Below are positions 27,531 through 51,362 of a DNA stretch of 64,000 bases, one piece after another. Source of the DNA: Candidatus Saccharimonadota bacterium (GTDB taxonomy: Bacteria; Patescibacteriota; Saccharimonadia; Saccharimonadales; Saccharimonadaceae); assembly GCA_028286365.1 (NCBI GenBank), contig JAQBRR010000002.1, positions 230,165 to 294,164 of the forward strand. The letters run 5' to 3'. The position numbers and the translations under genes were made by a program. The notes under the pieces are model-generated. The model was not told the origin of the DNA, searched no databases, and saw only the letters and a program-made list of their open reading frames with translations. Position 1 is the stretch's first letter; each line of letters opens with the position of its first letter.

Positions 27531-27662
27531 GACTGTAGTATAACATTTAGCAAACCCAAAAATTAAGTATTTGCGTGCGACAACACCTCTGTTAAGTAGC
27601 TTAATCTTCATTTTTACGCTAAAATAGACATAAAGCAATTGAATTTCAATTGAAAGGAGGAT

Positions 27663-29336
27663 GTGTCTTTGTCTAAAACAACAGAGAGCCTACAAGTCTC
27701 CGCGAATAGGATAGAGAAACAATTAACGTCGCCAACAGTCGTATTGATTCTGCTAGTCGCAACAGTCGGAGCCTTTATCTACCTTGACTACTTGCTTCAA
27801 CCTGCGTATCGTGGCGACGTACTGCCTTATACACTTGCACTTATTGCAGAAATCTTCATTATCTTCCAGGGTCTGTTATCATTTTGGACAATTTTAAGTG
27901 GGCGTTTCAATCCACGAAACTATGAATATCATAGTGCGCAAGCAAAGCTGTATGATGCCCCTGTTGGTAAGACTGCTATTAAAATTCTTGAAAAGAAAAG
28001 CGCAGTAGTTGCACGTGGTGTTGAAATGTACGTTGATCACCTACCTATTTCAGTAGATATCTTTATTCCTGTCTATGGTGAGCCTGTGAAAGAAATCCGT
28101 CATACTGCAGTAGCTGCTCGTGATGCTTACGGAAAACACATGACGTATATCCTGGATGATGGTAAGTCGGACGAAGTAGAGGCAATGGCTCGTAAGATTG
28201 GGGTTGAGTATATTCGTCGACCTGTTAATAACAATGCTAAGGCGGGTAATATTAACTACGCACTAGGACGGACTAACGGAACATTTTTTCTGATACTTGA
28301 CGCGGACTTTGTAGCCGAACCGACAATCTTATACGAGACAATCCCCTTCTTTGAAAATAGTAATCTTGCATTCGTCCAAACCCCACAGTTTTATGATAAT
28401 CAGGATACTTTTGTGTCATCGGCGGCAAACTTTATGCAGAATGTGTTTTATTCGCTTATACAATCTGGTAAAAATCGCTTTAATGCGGCCTTCTGCGTTG
28501 GGACGAATGTTGTGTTTAGACGAAAGGCAATCGAGTCTATTGGCGGTATGTATAGTTTATCTAAGTCTGAGGATATTTGGACATCTCTAACCCTTCATGA
28601 GCATGGCTACGATTCAACCTATATTCCGACCGTTTTAGCCGTTGGCAAGACGCCCGAGACGATGAGTGCCTACTCAAAACAACAACTTCGATGGGCAACT
28701 GGTAGTTTTGAGATATTTTTACGGCACAATCCTTTACTCCAAAAAAAACTAACCATTGATCAACGGTTGCAATATTTTGCGACAACTTCATATTATTTCG
28801 TTGGATTCTCTGTTTTATTACTTCTTTTATTACCACCGCTTCAGATATTTTTTAATCTTTCACCGATTGCAACGACGATTCCAATTTGGCAATGGGGCCT
28901 GATGTATAGTGGTTTTTACGTATCACAACTTGTATTAGCCTTTTATACTATGGGCGGTTTTAAGTTAAAAACGTTGATGCTAGCTAATGTATCGTTTCCT
29001 ATTTACATCAAGGCGTTCTTTAACGCCCTTAGTAAAAAGGATCAAGCCTGGAAGGCGACGAATACAGTATCGTATGATTCACCGTTCAACTATGTCCGTA
29101 TTCAAGTGTATGTCTTCGTATTTCTCCTACTGACAAGCGCCGTAGGGCTTGGTAAGGCTATATACACTAATCAATTTTCTATTTCTCTTGCCTGGAATGC
29201 GCTCAATACGATCATATTCGGCTACTTTGTGTGTATGGCATATGCAGAAGCATTAGCTATCAAAAGACAGCGTAGACAGGCTAAGAAGGCGTTAAAACAA
29301 AATCGAATTCAAGTCAGAGAAGGAGCTATAGGATGA
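27663..29336 (+). CDS. Processive GT2 glycosyltransferase (cellulose/curdlan synthase-like)
   Basis: 557 residues. Two N-terminal membrane helices (30-47, 55-78) precede a GT-A domain with ILDDGKSDE (163-171), LDADF (212-216), TPQFYDNQD (240-248), SED (302-304) and the processivity motif QQLRWATG (340-347); four or more C-terminal helices form the export channel. No PilZ domain is seen, as in curdlan synthase and unlike cellulose synthase. GTG 27663 or TTG 27669 both follow GGAGG (27655-27659); TTG has better spacing. It overlaps the next gene by ATGA. The GH81 gene downstream suggests a beta-1,3-glucan product, but this is inference. Confidence 0.9.
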   Translation: MSLSKTTESLQVSANRIEKQLTSPTVVLILLVATVGAFIYLDYLLQPAYRGDVLPYTLALIAEIFIIFQGLLSFWTILSGRFNPRNYEYHSAQAKLYDAPVGKTAIKILEKKSAVVARGVEMYVDHLPISVDIFIPVYGEPVKEIRHTAVAARDAYGKHMTYILDDGKSDEVEAMARKIGVEYIRRPVNNNAKAGNINYALGRTNGTFFLILDADFVAEPTILYETIPFFENSNLAFVQTPQFYDNQDTFVSSAANFMQNVFYSLIQSGKNRFNAAFCVGTNVVFRRKAIESIGGMYSLSKSEDIWTSLTLHEHGYDSTYIPTVLAVGKTPETMSAYSKQQLRWATGSFEIFLRHNPLLQKKLTIDQRLQYFATTSYYFVGFSVLLLLLLPPLQIFFNLSPIATTIPIWQWGLMYSGFYVSQLVLAFYTMGGFKLKTLMLANVSFPIYIKAFFNALSKKDQAWKATNTVSYDSPFNYVRIQVYVFVFLLLTSAVGLGKAIYTNQFSISLAWNALNTIIFGYFVCMAYAEALAIKRQRRQAKKALKQNRIQVREGAIG

Positions 29337-30061
29337 AGTTTACTGGAAGAGTTAGATTTGTATTTGGGATAATAGTTGTAATCATAATCGTGGGGCTACT
29401 CACACTTTACCTCGATGGAATTATGTCGCAGTCTCCATCATTTAAGGCACAGCTGGCTGCTAATGCGGTAGCGATCGGAACAGACTATCCTGGGCTTGTT
29501 GTGAAACAAAATGTCGAGGAGGGAGATAAAGTCACTAAGAACCAAATATTATTTGAAATACAAAGCACACAACTGAACCAAGATCTGACCAACGGGGTCA
29601 TATCAACCTCTTCATTGTCGTTTAGTGTAGATCCAACCACGAATTATATTCAACTCAAATCTAAGGAAGATGGTGTTATTCAAAAGATCAACTACAGGGC
29701 GGGGTCATATGTACCAGGCGGTAGTATTGTCGCAACAGTGAATACGCTAAGCTCACTGTACGTTTCTGCGAGCTTTCACCTATCACCTCCTGACTATGCC
29801 AGAATTAATAAGAATAGTGAGTTATCGCTCGTATTTCCCGACAACAGTGAAAAGCAAGCAACAATATATTCGATTACTCTTGTCCCAGATGGCGATAATG
29901 TCGATACCGTGGTTAAGGCCCGTCTGAAAAGCCCAGATGTTGGTGATTTTGAGTTTTCAACGGGCACGCCTGTTCATGCAACGCTCCAACTTACGCAGGC
30001 AAAATGGTATCAATGGGTCATTAATGACATTCAGCAACTGTTCAAACCGCTAGGTAGATAG
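29333..30061 (+). CDS. HlyD-like membrane-anchored periplasm-side protein
   Basis: 242 residues. One N-terminal membrane helix (VFGIIVVIIIVGLLTLYLD), then a split biotinyl-lipoyl/barrel-sandwich domain: VKQNVEEGDKVTKNQILFEI in the first half and KEDGVIQKINYRAGSYVPGG in the second, followed by a beta-barrel (FHLSPPDYARI). This is the fold of HlyD/Alg44-type proteins that pair with GT2 synthases such as alginate and mannuronan systems. Overlap with the synthase and 1-nt spacing to GH81 point to one complex on the outside of the membrane. Confidence 0.85.
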   Translation: MKFTGRVRFVFGIIVVIIIVGLLTLYLDGIMSQSPSFKAQLAANAVAIGTDYPGLVVKQNVEEGDKVTKNQILFEIQSTQLNQDLTNGVISTSSLSFSVDPTTNYIQLKSKEDGVIQKINYRAGSYVPGGSIVATVNTLSSLYVSASFHLSPPDYARINKNSELSLVFPDNSEKQATIYSITLVPDGDNVDTVVKARLKSPDVGDFEFSTGTPVHATLQLTQAKWYQWVINDIQQLFKPLGR

Positions 30062-30062
30062 A

Positions 30063-32072
30063 GTGAAAAGGTTCAGGATTACTAAAATAGTATTGATTAG
30101 TATAGTACCTTTAGCAGCTCTTATTACTGTACTTATAGTATCCGCTGTCTACAAACCTGCCGTTAATTCTATATTATCGGAGCCCCTCGTTGATCAAAAG
30201 ACGCTCCATACGCTCGCTCAAAAGAATGGCTCAAGTGCTGTAACTACACATATTGCTGCTGGTATTATTCCGCCGACGAACTCATGGATTAGTGGTATGG
30301 TACTTCAATCGACGCCTCTACCGGTATATCCGATGCCAAGTAGCTTTTTAGCTAAAGATTCAGGTTTTGAAGTTGGTCAGCCAACCATACAGTCCACTGC
30401 AACTGTTATTACCGGCGAACATGTACCAGGTATCATCGCAAGTATAAATAATAGCAGTACATTTAAACTCATTCGTTATGATAAAGTTTCTGCTTCGCTC
30501 ACCTATTACGATGCAACTAACCATGCAATCGGCCTACTTACACTTGCGGAAGGCTCACCATTCGTTTTTTTTCATAGTTCGAGCAGTACAACAATAAATC
30601 TTTCGAACTTAGGTGTAGTGAGCAAAGACAGCACGGAGTCCTACCTACGATACACGCTTAACGGCCATGATTATGCTGTTGTTGCTGGAAAAGGTGCAAC
30701 CATTAAGCAAACGGGTTCAAATGCATCAATTAGCATTGATAAAGATAGTCTCGTGACGCTGTATAGCGTTCCGAACGGTCGATCTGATCAATTACGTAGT
30801 CTTGCAGGTAACGAATTAACCTCAGTCAATATATCAAGTGCACAGCAACAGGGTTCATCGCTGACTACCCTCACATATAACACATCTAATAATAAGCCGA
30901 CCGTGTTTGTTCCTATGGCGTATAGTAAGCAAACTAATAAAACATCCGTATTAGGTACCTACGATAGCATTTATGGGCCGATGAACGGAACCATAGGTAA
31001 TAGTTTTACGTCTACAGTACCATTAGCCTCAGCGTCAAACTCCCTTGATTTGTCACATATAAGCGCAAGTCACAAACAAGAACTAATCACGAACTTAAAA
31101 AAAGACGTCAGTACTACGTCTATTGATAAAACAGATAGTTATTATGCAGGTAAACAGCTATCTCGAGCTGCGACGTTACTTGATATATCAGAGCAGCTTG
31201 GTCAAACCGACTCCACAAATCAGCTTAAATCAATCCTAATAAAGGCATTTTCTACTCGTTTGAACGCTAATTATTTTTACTATGACACGACCTTAAAAGG
31301 TATCGTCGCACAAAATAAATCGTTTGGTTCAGAAGATTTCAACGACCATCACTTTCATTACGGATACTTTATTTATGCGGCAAGTATTTTAGGTAAATAC
31401 GATAGTAATTTTGTAAGCAACTATAAGAATCAGATTAACTTGTTAGTAGCTGATATTGCTTCGTATCAACAGACCAACGACGTCCCTGTAAGTCGTTATT
31501 ATGACCCATACGTCGCTCATTCTTGGGCCGCCGGACTAGCACCATTTGCTGATGGCAATAACCAAGAATCGAGTTCAGAAGCTATCAATGCCTGGAATGG
31601 CATAGCCAAGTGGGCACAACTTACTAACAATGCTGAGCTGCAAAGTTCGGCAACATGGATGCTTTCAGGTGAAAGTGCAACGGCTAGTGCGGCCTGGCGT
31701 ACTACTGATACGGATGCTTCCTACCTAAAGAGCTACACAAGTCCACTTTCGTCTCTTAATTTTGGGGGTAAACGTACCTACTCAACATTCTTCAGTGATG
31801 AACCAAATGCTAAATTAGGCATTCAGCTGTTACCAATGAGCCCTATGATGACGAGCTTTAAAACAGATAAAGCAGCTATTGCACGTAATGTTAGTTCATC
31901 AATCAAAAATGATAATTATAATGTAGCGCTCGGTGATTATATCCTGATGTACCTTGCATTATCAGATCCACAAAAGGCGTCTTCAGAGCTAACCAAACAA
32001 CAGGATGCCTTTATCGATGACGGTAATTCACGGACATATCTGAATGCGTGGGTGTATTCTTTAACAGACTAA
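30063..32072 (+). CDS. GH81 endo-beta-1,3-glucanase, membrane-anchored
   Basis: 669 residues. N-terminal anchor or uncleaved signal (IVLISIVPLAALITVLIVSA), then PPTNSWISGMVLQSTPLPVYP, the usual beginning of GH81. Catalytic region: FGSEDFNDHHFHYGYFIYAA (Asp and His of the DHHFHYGY block, about 427-437) and ADGNNQESSSEAINAW (catalytic Glu, about 485-500), with SHSWAAGLAPF-type block before it. GH81 enzymes cut beta-1,3-glucans by inversion. GTG start directly after the HlyD-like gene. A trimming role, like BcsZ for cellulose, is inferred; lysis of fungal or host glucan is an alternative. Confidence 0.9.
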   Translation: MKRFRITKIVLISIVPLAALITVLIVSAVYKPAVNSILSEPLVDQKTLHTLAQKNGSSAVTTHIAAGIIPPTNSWISGMVLQSTPLPVYPMPSSFLAKDSGFEVGQPTIQSTATVITGEHVPGIIASINNSSTFKLIRYDKVSASLTYYDATNHAIGLLTLAEGSPFVFFHSSSSTTINLSNLGVVSKDSTESYLRYTLNGHDYAVVAGKGATIKQTGSNASISIDKDSLVTLYSVPNGRSDQLRSLAGNELTSVNISSAQQQGSSLTTLTYNTSNNKPTVFVPMAYSKQTNKTSVLGTYDSIYGPMNGTIGNSFTSTVPLASASNSLDLSHISASHKQELITNLKKDVSTTSIDKTDSYYAGKQLSRAATLLDISEQLGQTDSTNQLKSILIKAFSTRLNANYFYYDTTLKGIVAQNKSFGSEDFNDHHFHYGYFIYAASILGKYDSNFVSNYKNQINLLVADIASYQQTNDVPVSRYYDPYVAHSWAAGLAPFADGNNQESSSEAINAWNGIAKWAQLTNNAELQSSATWMLSGESATASAAWRTTDTDASYLKSYTSPLSSLNFGGKRTYSTFFSDEPNAKLGIQLLPMSPMMTSFKTDKAAIARNVSSSIKNDNYNVALGDYILMYLALSDPQKASSELTKQQDAFIDDGNSRTYLNAWVYSLTD

Positions 32073-32967: not shown

Positions 32968-34203
32968 CTAGACGTAAGAAACTAAGACTTTTACCTGAGC
33001 GTTCGTGACAGACGTTGTATCGGTATCAGCTATAAGGTTAGTAATCGATAGTGAAAGACCAGTGCCGAATGTCATCCCCAATGCACCAAAGTTGACGCCG
33101 ACAATACCTGAAGCTGGAATAGGAACGGTCAAGTATGGAACACTTGTGCCGACAGTTGGTGCAACGGCGAGGTTGAATATTTTAAGAAAAGCTGCCGCTG
33201 CTCCCGCGTTTGATGCGTTTATTGAATAAATTTTTGTAAAGCCGTTCTTCACGAGGTTGGCATTTGTCGATGCGGCTGAACTTAAATTGAACACTGAAGG
33301 TGAGTTAAACCCTACCGTTACAGTGTTGTTAATTGGAGACAGGGCGACAACAAGAGACGTATCTGTTGCTACGGCGACAGCTGAGGCTGCCTTTACGGTT
33401 GCCTTACGCCAGTAATACGTACCGTCGCCAATACTTTGTGATTGATGGGCAAAATCGGCTATGCCCGCTTGTGTGCCAGTAAGGGTTGGCGTACCTGTGA
33501 CTGATGCACTATTGAGACTAGCGACATGGAATGGTAGTGTCTGAATAGTAGGTACAAGTTGTGAAACGGCAAGCGGTGCGGCAAAAGTATCTCTATAGAA
33601 TAAAATTGTTCCCGTATTGATTGTAATAACATACAAGTGAGAACCTCCATCTGTGACAGCTGCAACGGTCTGCGTAAATATCCTTGTACCAGTCGCATAG
33701 ACTGACGCCCTCATAACGCCTGAAGTATCAACCTCAAAACCGATACCGTCTTGAATCGGTGCTGCAGCAGTACCAACTCCAGACGGTGCAGTTCCATATC
33801 CCCAAAAGCGGTAGTTACCTAAGGCAATTGTTGTGGCTTCTAGTTGAATGAATATACCGAGGCTGGTATTAGCATTGGCTGAAAATGTCGGCTGAGATGA
33901 AAGTGCAGACGTAGCGCTTGCTGTTGTACTAGGGTTTACAAGTACGCTTCCGTTTTGTGTAGGGGTAACTGTACCGCCTGATGTCCAGCGATTAGTAATA
34001 TCAATAGTTGTGCCATCGAAAGTATCAAGGAATAAAAAGGCAGGATCTATGCTTGCAGCCAGGGCGCCAAATGGTGATACGCCAACTACATTTGTTCCGT
34101 TAACAATCTTAGTTGGTACTGCAACCTGATCACTTGCAATTACGACTGGCGCTGAGTTGGCTGATACAGCACTCCCGTTAGCATTTGGTGGTATGTATGT
34201 CAT
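32968..34203 (-). CDS. Phage-structural-like surface protein
   Basis: 411 residues, almost without Cys, rich in Thr, Ala, Ser and Gly. The first part, SAPVVIASDQVAVPTKIVNGT, resembles the N-terminal region of phage baseplate or fibre-associated proteins. The segment FLDTFDGTTIDITNRWTSGG begins a concanavalin/LamG-like beta-sandwich, and the C-terminal part is also beta-rich (VSYV end). No signal peptide is visible. It lies 13 bp downstream of a second protein of this style. No capsid, terminase or integrase gene is near, so it may be a domesticated tail fibre or a contractile-injection or surface component. Confidence 0.55.
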   Translation of the reverse strand: MTYIPPNANGSAVSANSAPVVIASDQVAVPTKIVNGTNVVGVSPFGALAASIDPAFLFLDTFDGTTIDITNRWTSGGTVTPTQNGSVLVNPSTTASATSALSSQPTFSANANTSLGIFIQLEATTIALGNYRFWGYGTAPSGVGTAAAPIQDGIGFEVDTSGVMRASVYATGTRIFTQTVAAVTDGGSHLYVITINTGTILFYRDTFAAPLAVSQLVPTIQTLPFHVASLNSASVTGTPTLTGTQAGIADFAHQSQSIGDGTYYWRKATVKAASAVAVATDTSLVVALSPINNTVTVGFNSPSVFNLSSAASTNANLVKNGFTKIYSINASNAGAAAAFLKIFNLAVAPTVGTSVPYLTVPIPASGIVGVNFGALGMTFGTGLSLSITNLIADTDTTSVTNAQVKVLVSYV

Positions 34204-34216
34204 GGTTATTCCTTAC

Positions 34217-34810
34217 TCATTTAATTGTCCAGTTAGAATTAGTACTTACAAAATCCAGACTCATATTTGTGAGCGGAATCGTCACGCTATTACTCCCGTT
34301 GATTGTTTGTGAACTCGTGGTTGCTACTGTTACTGTATTTGTACCTGTATTCGTGACTGTATAGATATTAGTGTTTGCGACGGCTGTTGGTAAGGTCACG
34401 GTTGTTGTTCCTGATACCAAGTAGACGTAATCAGTGTTTGTGGCTGACCCTGCAGTCGTATTTGTTACTATTGTACTAATGAGTCGCGATATTGCGCCCG
34501 TCGCTCCTAAGCTATCGTCATACGTTGAGATAACTCGGCGTGCAGTGCCTGTTGTTTGTGTAAAATAGAGTTTGTCGGTTGTGAACTCTATCGCACCTGC
34601 TTCGGGTGTCGTAAGTATTGGCCCAGATGTTAGCTTTATCGGTGAAGTTCCTGCGGTTGCAGACCCCGCACGTACCGTAATCGTAGAGTGACCACCGTTT
34701 AAAGGATTATCTATACCTGTATTGTAGTGTTCTTTTGCTAGAAACTGGTTGAGAATACTCCCCCATGCTCCGTCATCACCATTTAATGTAGGTAATCGCT
34801 GTTCTGTCAC
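34217..34810 (-). CDS. Phage-tail-fibre-like protein
   Basis: 197 residues, GTG start (the upstream codon TAA closes the frame). The N-terminus, LPTLNGDDGAWGSILNQFLAKEHY, and the middle, GAIEFTTDKLYFTQTTGTAR, are typical of phage virion-associated fibre proteins. The C-terminus is repetitive and Thr-rich (TNIYTVTNTGTNTVTVATTS, SQTINGSNSVTIPL), a beta-prism-like tail. Followed by the 32968 gene in one operon. No Shine-Dalgarno is seen. Confidence 0.55.
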   Translation of the reverse strand: MTEQRLPTLNGDDGAWGSILNQFLAKEHYNTGIDNPLNGGHSTITVRAGSATAGTSPIKLTSGPILTTPEAGAIEFTTDKLYFTQTTGTARRVISTYDDSLGATGAISRLISTIVTNTTAGSATNTDYVYLVSGTTTVTLPTAVANTNIYTVTNTGTNTVTVATTSSQTINGSNSVTIPLTNMSLDFVSTNSNWTIK

Positions 34811-46237: not shown

Positions 46238-47461
46238 ATGAACATACTAATGCTCGGGTGGGAGCTTCCTCCTCACAACAGCGGTGGACTCGGGGTAGCC
46301 TGTTATCACATGTCCAAAGCCCTCGCCATGCAGGGCGCCTCTATCGACTTTGTTGTCCCCTATCAGGCAGACCACACCGACATCGACTTTATGACCGTAC
46401 ATAGTGCCACTCCTCTCACTCCTCTAGAGCGATACGGACTGGGCACCTACGACAGCAGCAAGCTTATCTCAACCTCTCTTACTGAGGCGGATATTAATGA
46501 TCTATCAGATATGCGTGGAGTCCAAAAGCGATATGTACAATTTGTTGAGGGATTAGTTACTCAGTCATCCTTCGACGCGATACACGCACACGATTGGCTT
46601 ACTATGGAGGCTGGTATGCGAGCGAAGCAACTGACAGGTGCACCCCTAATTGTTCACGTTCATGCGACCGAATTTGATAGGTCTGGAGCGGAGGCTGGCA
46701 ATCCACTGGTACACGAGATCGAGTACCAGGGACTCATGATGGCTGATCGTATTATTGCCGTTAGTAACATTACAAAAAGTCTAATTATGCAAAAGTACGG
46801 AATTCCAGAGGAAAAAATTGAAGTAATCTACAATGCCATAGATGTTCTAGGTTATAACGACGGCTACAACTATGATGAACGAACATATAAATACCTCGAG
46901 GCGCTCAAACGTGAAGGCTACACAATCGTATCGACCGTAACGCGTTTTACTATTCAAAAAGGTCTTACTCACTTTGTCCGTGCAGCAGCTAGAGCAAGTG
47001 AAAAGTATCACAAATTCGCGTTCTTGATGGCAGGTGATGGTGAACAGCGCGACGAGCTAATTGCGCTTGCCGCTGATCTTGGGATTGCGGATAAGTTATT
47101 CTTTACAGGGTTCGTCAGAGGAAAACAATGGCGTGACGCCTATAGTGTATCCGATATCTTCGTTATGAGCTCTGTCAGTGAGCCTTTTGGATTGACTGCC
47201 TTAGAGGCAGCCCATCACGATAATGCACTTATTATCACCAAACAAGCTGGTGTCGGTGAAGTACTTCAAAGTATATTTCGTTATGATTTCTGGGACGTTG
47301 ACCGTTTAGCTGATGAACTTGTCGGCATCGCAACATCTGATTCACTAAGGAATGCGTTAAAGGATAACGTAAAACGCGAATACGATCGAATCTCATGGCA
47401 AGACGTTGCCAGGGATTGCATGCGTATTTATAGCGCACTGAGAAGTGGAGTGCCAGCATGA
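46238..47461 (+). CDS. GT4 glycosyltransferase, glycogen-synthase-like
   Basis: GT-B enzyme of 407 residues. The N-terminal loop GWELPPHNSGGLGVACYHM (Gly-rich, as in ADP-glucose glucan synthases) and AIHAHDWLTMEAG match starch/glycogen synthases; the C-terminal half has VTRFTIQKGLTHFVRAA, AGDGEQRDEL, and the E-x7-E donor motif SEPFGLTALEA. With GH57 and GH15 enzymes downstream it is probably the polymerising enzyme of an alpha-1,4-glucan. Donor (ADP- or UDP-glucose) unknown. Overlaps the GH57 start by 4 bp. Confidence 0.88.
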   Translation: MNILMLGWELPPHNSGGLGVACYHMSKALAMQGASIDFVVPYQADHTDIDFMTVHSATPLTPLERYGLGTYDSSKLISTSLTEADINDLSDMRGVQKRYVQFVEGLVTQSSFDAIHAHDWLTMEAGMRAKQLTGAPLIVHVHATEFDRSGAEAGNPLVHEIEYQGLMMADRIIAVSNITKSLIMQKYGIPEEKIEVIYNAIDVLGYNDGYNYDERTYKYLEALKREGYTIVSTVTRFTIQKGLTHFVRAAARASEKYHKFAFLMAGDGEQRDELIALAADLGIADKLFFTGFVRGKQWRDAYSVSDIFVMSSVSEPFGLTALEAAHHDNALIITKQAGVGEVLQSIFRYDFWDVDRLADELVGIATSDSLRNALKDNVKREYDRISWQDVARDCMRIYSALRSGVPA

Positions 47462-48699
47462 CATCTGATAGCAAGAGACGTGGTATAGTCCTCTACTTGC
47501 ATGTTCATCAACCTCTTCGCATCCGTCAATATAGTATATTCGATACCGCTACCCAACACGACTACTACAGTGAGCACTCGTACGATAACGATCGCAACAA
47601 CGAAAAAGTCATGCGAAAAGTTGCTGATAAGTCATATCGACCGATGATTGCCCTTCTCGAAAAGCTTCTTCACCAGCATGCAGACTTTCACCTGTCCCTG
47701 AGTATCACTGGTACATTCATCGAACAGGCCCAACAATGGGTACCTGACGTAATTGAAGGTTTCAAACGTCTGGTTGATACAGGTAAAGTTGAGATCGTCG
47801 CTGAAACGTACTATCACTCACTCGCCTTCTTCTACAGTCGAAGTGAATTTGAAAGCCAAGTACGTGCACACCAATCAAAGATCAAGGAAGTGTTTGGCGT
47901 CGATACACAAGTATTCCGTAACACGGAACTTGCCTACAATGACGAACTTGCCGCCTGGGCAGATAAAGCAGGCTTTAAAGGAATTTTAGCCGAGGGATGG
48001 GACCCAATTCTCGAGTGGCGGAGCCCTAACCATGTCTATCAACCTAAGGGAACAGAAAATATTGCATTACTTCTCAAAAACTACCACCTTAGTGATGATC
48101 TGGCATTTCGTTTTAGCGACAAGGACTGGAGTCAGTGGCCGCTTAACGCTGATACCTACAGCGAATGGGCTAATGCCTCTATCGCTGACCAGCCTCTCGT
48201 AAACCTATTCATGGACTTCGAAACATTCGGCGAGCACCAATGGGCCGATACCGGAATCTTTGACTTCTTTGATAGTTTTGTCGGTAAGTGGCTATCTAAT
48301 CCAGACAACACATTCTATACAGTGTCAGGGGCAATTGATACTTTTGAACCAGTCGGTGAGATCAGCATGCCTAATACCGTCACTTGGGCTGATACCGAGC
48401 GTGATCTGACAGCATGGCTAGGAAATAGTATGCAACAGGAGGCCCTACGACACGTCTACTCGTTAGAGGATGACGTTCTACGTACGGGAGATTTAGAACT
48501 GATATCTGATTGGCGCAAGCTCCAAACCTCTGATCATGTCTACTATATGTGTACCAAGTGGTTTAGCGATGGTGACGTACACGCTTATTTTAGTCCGTAT
48601 GAGTCGCCATATGATGCCTTTTTATACTTTATAAATGTCGTTCGAGACATTCGATGGCGGCTACATGAACACCACAGAACGGGTGGTCTCAATGGCTAG
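47458..48699 (+). CDS. GH57 glycoside hydrolase (alpha-amylase/4-alpha-glucanotransferase type)
   Basis: 413 residues, the catalytic (beta/alpha)7 barrel without long extensions. GH57 motifs: LYLHVHQPLR (motif 1), FRNTELAYNDELA (motif 3, Glu nucleophile), and LFMDFETFGEHQW (motif 4, catalytic Asp). Retaining enzymes of this family cut or rearrange alpha-glucans. Starts within the end of the GT4 gene and overlaps the GH15 start, so all are translated together. Cytoplasmic: no signal peptide. Confidence 0.92.
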   Translation: MTSDSKRRGIVLYLHVHQPLRIRQYSIFDTATQHDYYSEHSYDNDRNNEKVMRKVADKSYRPMIALLEKLLHQHADFHLSLSITGTFIEQAQQWVPDVIEGFKRLVDTGKVEIVAETYYHSLAFFYSRSEFESQVRAHQSKIKEVFGVDTQVFRNTELAYNDELAAWADKAGFKGILAEGWDPILEWRSPNHVYQPKGTENIALLLKNYHLSDDLAFRFSDKDWSQWPLNADTYSEWANASIADQPLVNLFMDFETFGEHQWADTGIFDFFDSFVGKWLSNPDNTFYTVSGAIDTFEPVGEISMPNTVTWADTERDLTAWLGNSMQQEALRHVYSLEDDVLRTGDLELISDWRKLQTSDHVYYMCTKWFSDGDVHAYFSPYESPYDAFLYFINVVRDIRWRLHEHHRTGGLNG

Positions 48700-50635
48700 G
48701 CCTATAGTCCTCAGCAACGGCGAACTTCACGTTGGGCTCAATAAATATGGACTAGTGCACGACTTTTACTTTCCGTACGTCGGACTCGAGAATCATTCAG
48801 CCGGACAGGAAATGCGTCACCGCGTCGGTATTTGGGTTGAGGGCGAAATAAGTTGGCTCGATAGTGACAACTCGTGGTCATTTGAGTTCTCATACCCACA
48901 TAGTGCATTAATCGGTCATACCGTCGCAACAAACAGTCGGCTGGGAATTATATTAGAGTTTGACGACTGCGTTGACGCTCAGATTAGTGCCTTTCTACGT
49001 AATATACACGTTATCAATATGCGAGATACTGAACGTGACGTGCGACTCTTTATGCATCAAGCTTTTGCGATTGGTGATTCACGCAGCAATACTGATACAG
49101 GTCAGTACCTCCCAGACAGTGACGCAATCCTACACTACCGTGGACGACGAGCTTTTATTATATCTGGTCTCTACAATGACCAGCCATTTGATCAACATAC
49201 GATTGGACTATTTGGCATTGAGGGCCACGAGGGGACGTATCGAGACGCTGATGATGGCGAGCTCAGCAATGGCGCGGTAGAGCATGGCCGTGTTGACTCG
49301 ACTTTACGCTTTCGTATGCAAATACCACCACACAGTTCTACGCGTGTTCAGTATTGGATTGCTGCTGGTCGTTCAACCAGGCTTGCCTTGTTCGTTCATA
49401 AGCAAATTCGCGAGTCAGGTGTAATCTCCCGAATTGGTGAAACAGCCAATTGGTGGCACAACTGGTTAAAGCCCGCTCAGGCAACGGCGAATCAAATTCC
49501 TGAAATATACCGTAAGACATTCATAGAAAGTGTGATGATCATAAAGTCACAGATTGATATGCGTGGTGCTGTCATCGCAAGTACAGATACGACAATGCTT
49601 AATTATTCACGCGATGCTTATGCATACTGTTGGCCACGAGACGGATCGTTTGTGCTATGGCCATTAATCCGCATGGGGTACAAGGATGAAGCGTATCGAT
49701 TCTTTGAATTTTGTAAACGCGGACTTCATCCAGATGGCTATTTAATGCATAAATATCGGGCTGATGGTGCACTTGGTAGCAGCTGGCACCCCTATGTACA
49801 TGACGGAGTTGTTGCACCACCGATTCAGGAAGACGAGACAGCACTAGTCCTCTTTGTATTCGCACAATACTACAAGATGCATCCCGACAATAATCTGCTA
49901 AAAGATTTTTATGAAGAGATGATAACACCTATGGCGGACTTCCTTGCTAGTTATATTGAAGAGGCCACTGGTTTGCCTAAGCCAAGTTATGATCTGTGGG
50001 AACAAGTGTTTCTCACTACCACCTTTACGACATCTGTCGTGTACGCAGCGTTACTCGCAGCATCAGAGATCGCAGAGAAAGCAAATGACCCCGATAATGC
50101 AGTAAAGTGGCGATCAAGCGCCGAAGACATTGCCTCGGCAGCACACAAACATCTCTATAATACCGACCGCAAGCATTTTTATAAGGGGTTGATTGTCAAG
50201 GATGGCGAAATTATCAAAGACGGTACTATTGATACATCGAGTACGTTTGGTGTCTTTATGTTCGGACTATTTGATGTATCGAGCACTGAACTAACTTCAT
50301 CAGTCGAAACTATTAAAGAGCTATTCGGAGTTAATCAGGGCGCAATCGGTCTACCTCGTTATGAAAATGATGATTATCGCCGCTCGAATCCCTCAATTAC
50401 TGGCAATAGTTGGTTCATTACCTCAATGTGGCTAGCTCAATACGAGACAGATATCGGTAATCAGTCGAGAGCATTCGAGATTCTTGAATGGGTCAGGTCG
50501 CATGCAATGAGTACCGGCATGATGTCAGAGCAGATTGATCCCGTTACAGATCAAAATATCGCACCTGCGCCTCTTACGTGGACACAAGCCGAATATGTGT
50601 CGACACTACTTGATACAATAACCGAGGAAGATTAG
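48692..50635 (+). CDS. GH15 glucoamylase/trehalase-like glycoside hydrolase
   Basis: About 647 residues. I choose ATG 48692 (MARPIVLSNGEL), inside the end of the GH57 gene, behind GGGTGG; ATG 48665 is an alternative. An N-terminal beta-sandwich (to about 280) precedes the (alpha/alpha)6 barrel with YAYCWPRDGSFVLWPL, LPKPSYDLWEQ (catalytic acid Glu) and APLTWTQAEYVSTL (catalytic base Glu). It inverts and releases beta-glucose from non-reducing ends; relatives also cut trehalose or isomaltose. No signal peptide: an intracellular role in alpha-glucan breakdown. Confidence 0.92.
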   Translation: MARPIVLSNGELHVGLNKYGLVHDFYFPYVGLENHSAGQEMRHRVGIWVEGEISWLDSDNSWSFEFSYPHSALIGHTVATNSRLGIILEFDDCVDAQISAFLRNIHVINMRDTERDVRLFMHQAFAIGDSRSNTDTGQYLPDSDAILHYRGRRAFIISGLYNDQPFDQHTIGLFGIEGHEGTYRDADDGELSNGAVEHGRVDSTLRFRMQIPPHSSTRVQYWIAAGRSTRLALFVHKQIRESGVISRIGETANWWHNWLKPAQATANQIPEIYRKTFIESVMIIKSQIDMRGAVIASTDTTMLNYSRDAYAYCWPRDGSFVLWPLIRMGYKDEAYRFFEFCKRGLHPDGYLMHKYRADGALGSSWHPYVHDGVVAPPIQEDETALVLFVFAQYYKMHPDNNLLKDFYEEMITPMADFLASYIEEATGLPKPSYDLWEQVFLTTTFTTSVVYAALLAASEIAEKANDPDNAVKWRSSAEDIASAAHKHLYNTDRKHFYKGLIVKDGEIIKDGTIDTSSTFGVFMFGLFDVSSTELTSSVETIKELFGVNQGAIGLPRYENDDYRRSNPSITGNSWFITSMWLAQYETDIGNQSRAFEILEWVRSHAMSTGMMSEQIDPVTDQNIAPAPLTWTQAEYVSTLLDTITEED

Positions 50636-50636
50636 T

Positions 50637-51362
50637 ATGTCTCCAAGATTTCATAATATCGTAAGAGTCGCAAAAGGTGCCATTCTTCGTAATAGTATTG
50701 TTAGCCGCCATCGTCGACAAGCTATTATTAAATTCACCAATAAGTTCGGCTTTGTTTATTTCGGACACGTTGATCAGCATGACGACGAACATCATATTAT
50801 ACGTGGTCTAACGGTTAGCTCGTCGCACCAGGATGAACACTACAGTGTCGGCTCATTTGAAGGCTATGATGTCAGCCTCGTTGATCGATACGATATTCTC
50901 AGTACACCTAAACAGTCCTTAAAGACTCATCGTTGGCTGATCTTCGAGATAGACCTACATAATGGTAAGGATGTCCCCCATATCTTCTTAGGTGGTCATA
51001 ACCATCAAAATTCATCGTATGCAAAGTTATTTACCTCTGTTCCATCTCTTCAGTCTGTACCGCTCGGCACATTTGGTGCTCATAGTAATGAATTCACAAG
51101 CAGGTACAGTCTATTCGCGACAGCAACACAATTTATCGAAGTTGAGCGACTATTTACAGCCGACGTGACACGGACAATTGCAGCGCATTTCTGGCCACTT
51201 GCAGTTGAAGTTTTTGAGGGTTCGCTATATGTGTATGCTGATAACCAAGTGTTGTCCGTTAGTCTCCTTGAGACAATGCTCAAGAATGGCCTCTGGTTGG
51301 CACAAAAACTTGATGAACACACCTACCCTACTGATTCCGCTGAATCGAACATTGAAGAATAA
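50637..51362 (+). CDS. Uncharacterised protein of the alpha-glucan operon
   Basis: 241 residues, starting 1 nt after the GH15 stop. N-terminal basic helix (VRVAKGAILRNSIVSRHRRQ), then mainly beta: FVYFGHVDQHDDEHHIIRGL, FEGYDVSLVDRYDIL, WLIFEIDLHNGKDVPHIFLG and FTSRYSLFATATQFIEVERL. No membrane segment and no catalytic motif I recognise. Tight coupling to three glucan enzymes suggests a glucan-binding or regulatory protein; this is inference. Confidence 0.7.
   Translation: MSPRFHNIVRVAKGAILRNSIVSRHRRQAIIKFTNKFGFVYFGHVDQHDDEHHIIRGLTVSSSHQDEHYSVGSFEGYDVSLVDRYDILSTPKQSLKTHRWLIFEIDLHNGKDVPHIFLGGHNHQNSSYAKLFTSVPSLQSVPLGTFGAHSNEFTSRYSLFATATQFIEVERLFTADVTRTIAAHFWPLAVEVFEGSLYVYADNQVLSVSLLETMLKNGLWLAQKLDEHTYPTDSAESNIEE

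Follow-up and report, generated by a model that had tools for sequence, protein, structure and literature searches.

A GT2-HlyD-GH81 gene module of Saccharibacteria, probably for a curdlan-type beta-1,3-glucan, with counterparts in other Patescibacteria and in actinobacteria

The closest described counterparts of the locus analyzed here are polysaccharide systems built around a membrane-embedded synthase of glycosyltransferase family 2 (GT2). In the cellulose systems BcsA-BcsB-BcsZ and clostridial CcsA-CcsZ, a synthase of the BcsA fold is accompanied by a cognate hydrolase of matching linkage (PMC7710045). A trimming or release role has been proposed for BcsZ, AlgL, and CcsZ, the latter also being the precedent for a synthase-linked hydrolase that reports on the polymer (PMC7710045). 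Curdlan is made by CrdS of the Agrobacterium crdASC system (PMC6821405, PMC10819609), and the residues separating curdlan from cellulose synthases were listed by Oehme et al. (PMC6821405). BgsA-BgsB of Sinorhizobium and Rhizobium (PMC5567048, PMC9495663) are encoded by a small operon that combines a GT2 beta-glucan synthase and a protein of the HlyD type. In the reduced genomes of mycoplasmas, capsular homopolysaccharide synthases are single membrane enzymes, described as yielding homopolymers of other linkages, namely beta-1,6 and beta-1,2 glucans and a galactan (PMC11658790); their likeness to our locus is drawn from that description. Here we describe a module of three genes, encoding a GT2 synthase, an HlyD-like protein, and a hydrolase of glycoside hydrolase family 81 (GH81), within a 64,000-nucleotide stretch (the window; contig JAQBRR010000002.1, positions 230,165 to 294,164) of a Saccharibacteria genome of 850,738 bases and 99.98% completeness.

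We consider it probable (roughly 0.7) that these genes constitute a self-contained, synthase-dependent module for a curdlan-type beta-1,3-glucan, operating in a monoderm cell and without control by cyclic di-guanosine monophosphate (c-di-GMP). The linkage, the division of labour between the proteins, and a role of the product as coat or in attachment are what we infer; the genes themselves are laid out as follows:

27653..27660, plus strand: ribosome-binding site AAAGGAGG of the GT2 gene (sequence; N-termini of relatives)
27663..29336, plus strand: processive GT2 synthase, 557 amino acids as listed, probably 555 from TTG 27669 (Pfam, PDB sequence search, predicted structure, fold search, residue comparison, tree)
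29333..30061, plus strand: HlyD/membrane-fusion-like partner, 242 amino acids (Pfam, predicted structure, fold search, BgsB comparison)
30063..32072, plus strand: GH81 endo-beta-1,3-glucanase, 669 amino acids (Pfam, PDB, alignment, N-terminus analysis)

All three open reading frames, first described in an earlier note on this DNA, were confirmed at these positions and are tightly spaced; both the ATGA overlap of the GT2 and HlyD-like genes (29333-29336) and the gap of one nucleotide before the GH81 gene (30062), which that note had reported, are seen in the sequence. The gene 3' of GH81 lies on the opposite strand and overlaps the GH81 end by 4 nucleotides, so that the unit comprises exactly three genes. 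For the GT2, TTG 27669 appears the likelier start compared with GTG 27663, based on the spacing to AAAGGAGG (8 nucleotides past it, GTG 27663 only 2) and on the resulting N-terminus MSKTTESLQ, to be compared with MSKPTENLQ and MPKPTENLQ in relatives. Promoter and terminator scans at the module gave signals no better than chance.

The first protein matched Pfam Glyco_trans_2_3 (2.4e-25) and found its best PDB relative in BcsA (3.8e-47). Its previous description as a processive GT2 with D, D, D, and QxxRW motifs, with membrane helices but no PilZ domain, held in each respect: the motifs read DDG, DAD, QTPQ, FCVGT, SED, and finally QQLRW, membrane helices are present, and Pfam detected no PilZ on the protein. 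The predicted structure (predicted local distance difference test, pLDDT, 77.5) is BcsA-like with a Z score of 31.9 across 475 residues of E. coli BcsA, and its chain stops about 20 residues past the last membrane helix. The NCBIfam full-length CelA model scored 235 bits, below its cut-off of 699, and the BcsA signatures PilZ, FFCG, TED, QTPH, and N298 were all absent. At BcsA positions 276, 298, and 309 the window GT2 carries Q, Q, and K as does CrdS (Q237, Q259, K270), where BcsA has H, N, and L; the lysine is replaced by R in clade members from Cellulomonas and Propionibacteriaceae. FCVG and SED are common to the window GT2 and a Nitrobacter GT2 bearing all seven CrdS-type residues. In a tree of 53 sequences the module GT2s formed a clade of their own (support 76/99), with BcsA, BgsA, the CrdS-like Nitrobacter GT2, and NodC outside. 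Clustering with cellulose or N-acetylglucosamine synthases, which the earlier note had named as speaking against its glucan proposal, was not seen, and the catalytic residues are of CrdS type. Despite these matching catalytic-domain residues, the GT2 is, judged by its sequence, no CrdS in the strict sense.

The closest solved structures by fold and sequence are cellulose synthases, the PDB having no other close bacterial structures, and the channel residues do not match CrdS. It could hence be argued that the GT2 makes cellulose, a beta-1,4-glucan, or some other hexose polymer, its resemblance to CrdS being superficial. We regard this as highly improbable, as the BcsA-specific H276, N298, L309, FFCG, and TED are all replaced, and the cellulase-type hydrolases GH8 and GH5 go with other GT2 clades of the phylum. 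The module further differs from the cellulose systems by having neither PilZ nor BcsB, and GH81 instead of GH8 or GH5.

The second gene was confirmed as HlyD-like by Pfam (HlyD_D23 at 5.9e-10, with HlyD_D23 and HlyD_3 both above cut-off), by its predicted structure (pLDDT 81.7), and by fold search, in which ZneB and MexA (Foldseek, 1.4e-10) appeared as structural relatives. The protein carries a membrane helix at its N-terminus and further contains a lipoyl domain in two halves and a beta-barrel. The lipoyl halves are separated by about 28 residues with a single short helix, compared with about 185 residues in Sinorhizobium BgsB as read from its sequence. Thus, the coiled-coil alpha-helical hairpin with which the HlyD family docks to outer-membrane channels is absent from this protein, which fits a cell without outer membrane.

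The pairing of GT2 and HlyD is that of bgsBA, BgsA has Q276 and Q298 in common with the window GT2, and synthases for (1,3;1,4)-beta-glucan exist in Gram-positives (RiGT2, PMC10374906). The module might, on these grounds, make a mixed-linkage (1,3;1,4)-beta-glucan as BgsA-BgsB does, with GH81 editing the product. We consider this unlikely. In BgsA-BgsB the HlyD gene comes first and encodes a long hairpin, whereas the HlyD partner of the module lies downstream of the GT2. FCCG, TED, R309, the long-hairpin partner, and the c-di-GMP-binding C-terminal tail of BgsA are all missing in the window. BgsA-BgsB has no GH81, and BgsA falls outside the module clade. Furthermore, GH81 is described as needing beta-1,3 runs (PMC3627985), which are absent from a regularly alternating glucan. 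By comparison of the sequences, the module would work like the CrdS and BgsA systems while belonging strictly to neither.

For the third protein, PF17652 was matched at 2.3e-58 (198.5 bits, cut-off 25.6) and PDB entry 6fop at 2.1e-57 over 600 residues; the match is to the catalytic C-terminal (alpha/alpha)6 domain alone, the GH81 N-terminal domain PF03639 of Pfam not being reached. D428, H432, E502, and E506, in the motifs NDHHFHYG and NQESSSEA, do not vary among 16 sequences taken from both sides of the phylum. D428, E502, and E506 we take to be the catalytic residues, in keeping with GH81 mutagenesis work. Four Asp/Glu residues are stated to be required in GH81, which is described as comprising endo-beta-1,3-glucanases only; for one member, five beta-1,3-linked glucoses are the minimum (PMC3627985). 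Membrane anchoring of the enzyme, another claim of the earlier note, was supported by an N-terminal anchor of the uncleaved type with no lipobox. Such a membrane helix is the tether in Saccharibacteria, a lipobox (lipoprotein) that in most actinobacteria; in either form it would place the enzyme where the chain exits the cell. A different kind of GH81 occurs in another Saccharibacteria genome (G558, L057:8607-14573), which encodes two long tandem GH81 proteins without signal peptide and with similar C-terminal ends. One of these was confirmed to contain Big_3 immunoglobulin-like repeats, and a short protein resembling a tail-fibre or adhesin piece is encoded upstream of the pair.

Conservation of gene order links the three genes to one another. 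GH81 is rare, occurring in 6 of 380 genomes of a phylum sample and in 17 of 394 of a family sample, and 16 of the latter 17 have the order GT2-HlyD-GH81 or contigs consistent with it, the 17th being cut by a contig end. The search for this order in other Saccharibacteria that had been proposed for the locus was thereby successful in about 16 cases. Considering that GH81 is rare in the group yet nearly always found in this order, its position beside the GT2-HlyD pair is far beyond chance. A scan of named genomes with a GT2 alignment returned 34 loci, of which two contigs ending too early and three loci from another GT2 clade (L101-L103) were set aside. In all others a GH81 is found no farther than about 4 kb away, and the order is unchanged save for one Moranbacteria locus with GH81 upstream. 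The loci with the three-gene order extend to WWE3, Parcubacteria, and Levybacteria, and ten loci of the scan are actinobacterial (Pseudarthrobacter, Propionibacteriaceae, Cellulomonas). Every intact actinobacterial locus of the GT2 clade that was examined carries the three-gene order. Within the genus Cellulomonas the GT2 is present in 51 of 80 genomes, and all 20 loci read have the three genes in order. The protein distances of the three genes correlate across 27 loci (r 0.94, 0.87, and 0.89; none of 2,000 permutations as high), a correlation that in part reflects shared species ancestry. A recent unrelated insertion of GH81, raised earlier as a possible objection, can be dismissed, as GH81 accompanies GT2-HlyD in every intact clade locus of Saccharibacteria, other Patescibacteria, and Actinobacteria and the proteins co-diverge.

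Other GT2 clades of the Patescibacteria pair with GH8, GH5, GH16, or GH26, while the module clade was never found with GH8 or GH5 in the loci seen. Since the hydrolase family changes with the GT2 clade, it is informative on the polymer. The pairings recorded at the other loci (L029, L030, L031, L032, L033, L096) were GH8 with a PMT_2-like membrane protein, GH5, GH16 with PMT_2, or GH26, which suggests that various putative exopolysaccharide modules exist across the phylum.

Two variants of the module itself were noted. In one genome of the genus Cellulomonas (L162, G830) the GT2-HlyD pair is tandemly duplicated before a single GH81. A supposed GT2-HlyD fusion in Acidipropionibacterium jensenii (L092:7983-10580, one open frame) was rejected, the joining stretch looking like the frame-shifted tail of the sister sequence; the single frame may represent a sequencing error or a true frameshift.

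The same data bear on whether GH81 might serve to scavenge or attack foreign beta-1,3-glucan of fungal, algal, or host origin, being merely co-transcribed with the synthase of another polymer. GH81 genes without GT2 neighbour are indeed found in Streptomyces, Deinococcus, and on Halopiger plasmids, the G558 genome has its two extra GH81s with immunoglobulin-like domains, and Cellulomonas papers list a GH81 among degradative enzymes. The module GH81, in contrast, is strictly linked to a single GT2 clade across two phyla, diverges in correlation with its neighbours, is tethered to the membrane, and is the sole GH81 in four of the five actinobacterial genomes that were searched for the family, in an operon without uptake or beta-glucosidase genes. 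A scavenging role is in our view very unlikely.

The glucan reading gains a further link from Cellulomonas. Curdlan has been reported from C. flavigena (PMC3544764, PMC3035266), being abundant in this species and scarce in C. fimi (PMC3544764), and two CrdS-like GT2s per genome have been named for C. flavigena, C. fimi, and C. gilvus (PMC3544764). Our search with a CrdS-like query likewise returned exactly two GT2s each in C. flavigena 134T, C. fimi ATCC 484, and C. gilvus. The type strain C. flavigena 134T possesses the module; its module GT2, 50% identical to that of the window, has the CrdS-type motif, the other CrdS-like GT2 there FFCG and TED. Based on this number of two per genome and on a position of the module GT2 that fits the locus-tag number, the putative curdlan synthases Cfla_3154, Celf_3456, and Celgi_1506 (PMC3544764) are very probably orthologues of the module GT2, being 50-52% identical to the window GT2. 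In that publication the Cellulomonas GT2 was not connected with the adjacent HlyD and GH81 genes, GH81 being put among degradative enzymes. The curdlan-like product proposed in the earlier note is hence supported by the presence of the module in Cellulomonas including the C. flavigena type strain, its chemistry being deduced from genes and the use in host attachment or biofilm suggested by that note being putative. The module GT2 would be the gene behind Cellulomonas curdlan, a polymer reported since 2002 with no operon assigned in the literature searched, and the module points to the likely genes. Its GH81 would also explain how this curdlan could be cut, a point described as unclear in C. 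flavigena (PMC3544764).

Several points weigh against a curdlan-type product and keep our estimate well below certainty. The channel-entrance residues H374, W422, E439, and H442 of CrdS are not matched, the window GT2 having A, Y, T, and L. At the corresponding BcsA positions 412, 465, 477, and 480 it agrees with neither enzyme, so that its channel differs from that of CrdS, the alignment in the channel helices being less certain than in the catalytic domain. In the tree, whose deep branches are weak, the module clade does not join the CrdS representative, which is the Nitrobacter GT2, a proxy picked for its CrdS-type residues. Moreover, no Cellulomonas gene has been linked to curdlan by mutation in the literature searched, the Saccharibacteria polymer is a prediction from genes, and a hydrolase gene adjoining a synthase speaks to the linkage indirectly. 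As a separate observation on the proxy, this GT2 of Nitrobacter hamburgensis plasmid 1 (L107:2682-5827) follows an HlyD gene and a gene for a 389-amino-acid protein that weakly resembles GH127; this may be another synthase with its own hydrolase.

For the curdlan-type module, we propose the following mode of action. The GT2 would draw uridine diphosphate glucose (UDP-glucose) from the cytoplasm and thread the lengthening polymer through a membrane channel of its own in a BcsA-like manner, the short HlyD-like protein serving as sleeve or adaptor on the outer face. The membrane-tethered GH81 would cut the emerging beta-1,3-glucan and thereby set chain length, release the chain, or clear stalled ones, a role modelled on BcsZ and CcsZ serving cellulose synthases. 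A GalU-like UDP-glucose pyrophosphorylase encoded in the genome (268 bits, below the curated cut-off of 327) can provide the UDP-glucose. Neither GGDEF domains (8 of 14 controls positive in the same search) nor PilZ proteins were found in the genome, which excludes c-di-GMP control as far as these families show. Compared with CrdS, which has other partners than HlyD and GH81, with BgsA-BgsB, and with the cellulose systems, the module is novel in its own GT2 clade, in GH81 as the hydrolase partner, and in the monoderm form of the HlyD partner.

In the surroundings of the module, two minus-strand proteins with no family match (32968-34810), located next to it, resemble secreted or tail-fibre-like repeat proteins. 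A GT4, GH57, and GH15 cluster of glycogen-like metabolism (46238-51362) is located 14 kb away and directly adjoins the module in the related genomes G009 (L020) and G426 (L026). A very recent transfer of the module into this genome is unsupported by composition (G+C 0.41-0.42, window 0.43).

Saccharibacteria are episymbionts of actinobacteria, including Propionibacteriaceae, and the actinobacteria with the module (Propionibacteriaceae, Cellulomonas, Pseudarthrobacter) belong to the broad group supplying their known hosts. In the tree the GT2s of Saccharibacteria are sister to those of the actinobacteria (support 99/97), which makes an old transfer between them possible in either direction. It is conceivable, though in our judgement doubtful, that by sharing an actinobacterial beta-1,3-glucan module this episymbiont lineage meets its host with a glucan coat of host type and a tethered GH81, the two acting at the zone of contact as a shared matrix, as mimicry, or as a way through host glucan. 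In the literature searched no defined sugar polymer is described for Saccharibacteria. The openly licensed papers searched, where absence is weak evidence, included none that connects Saccharibacteria to GH81, or to cellulose synthase and exopolysaccharide together, and no relevant one on Patescibacteria and curdlan. The module would give a bacterial group with an almost unknown surface chemistry a specific polysaccharide that can be tested for, and the pairing of GT2 clade and hydrolase family in Patescibacteria may offer a way to read the polymer type from genome sequence.

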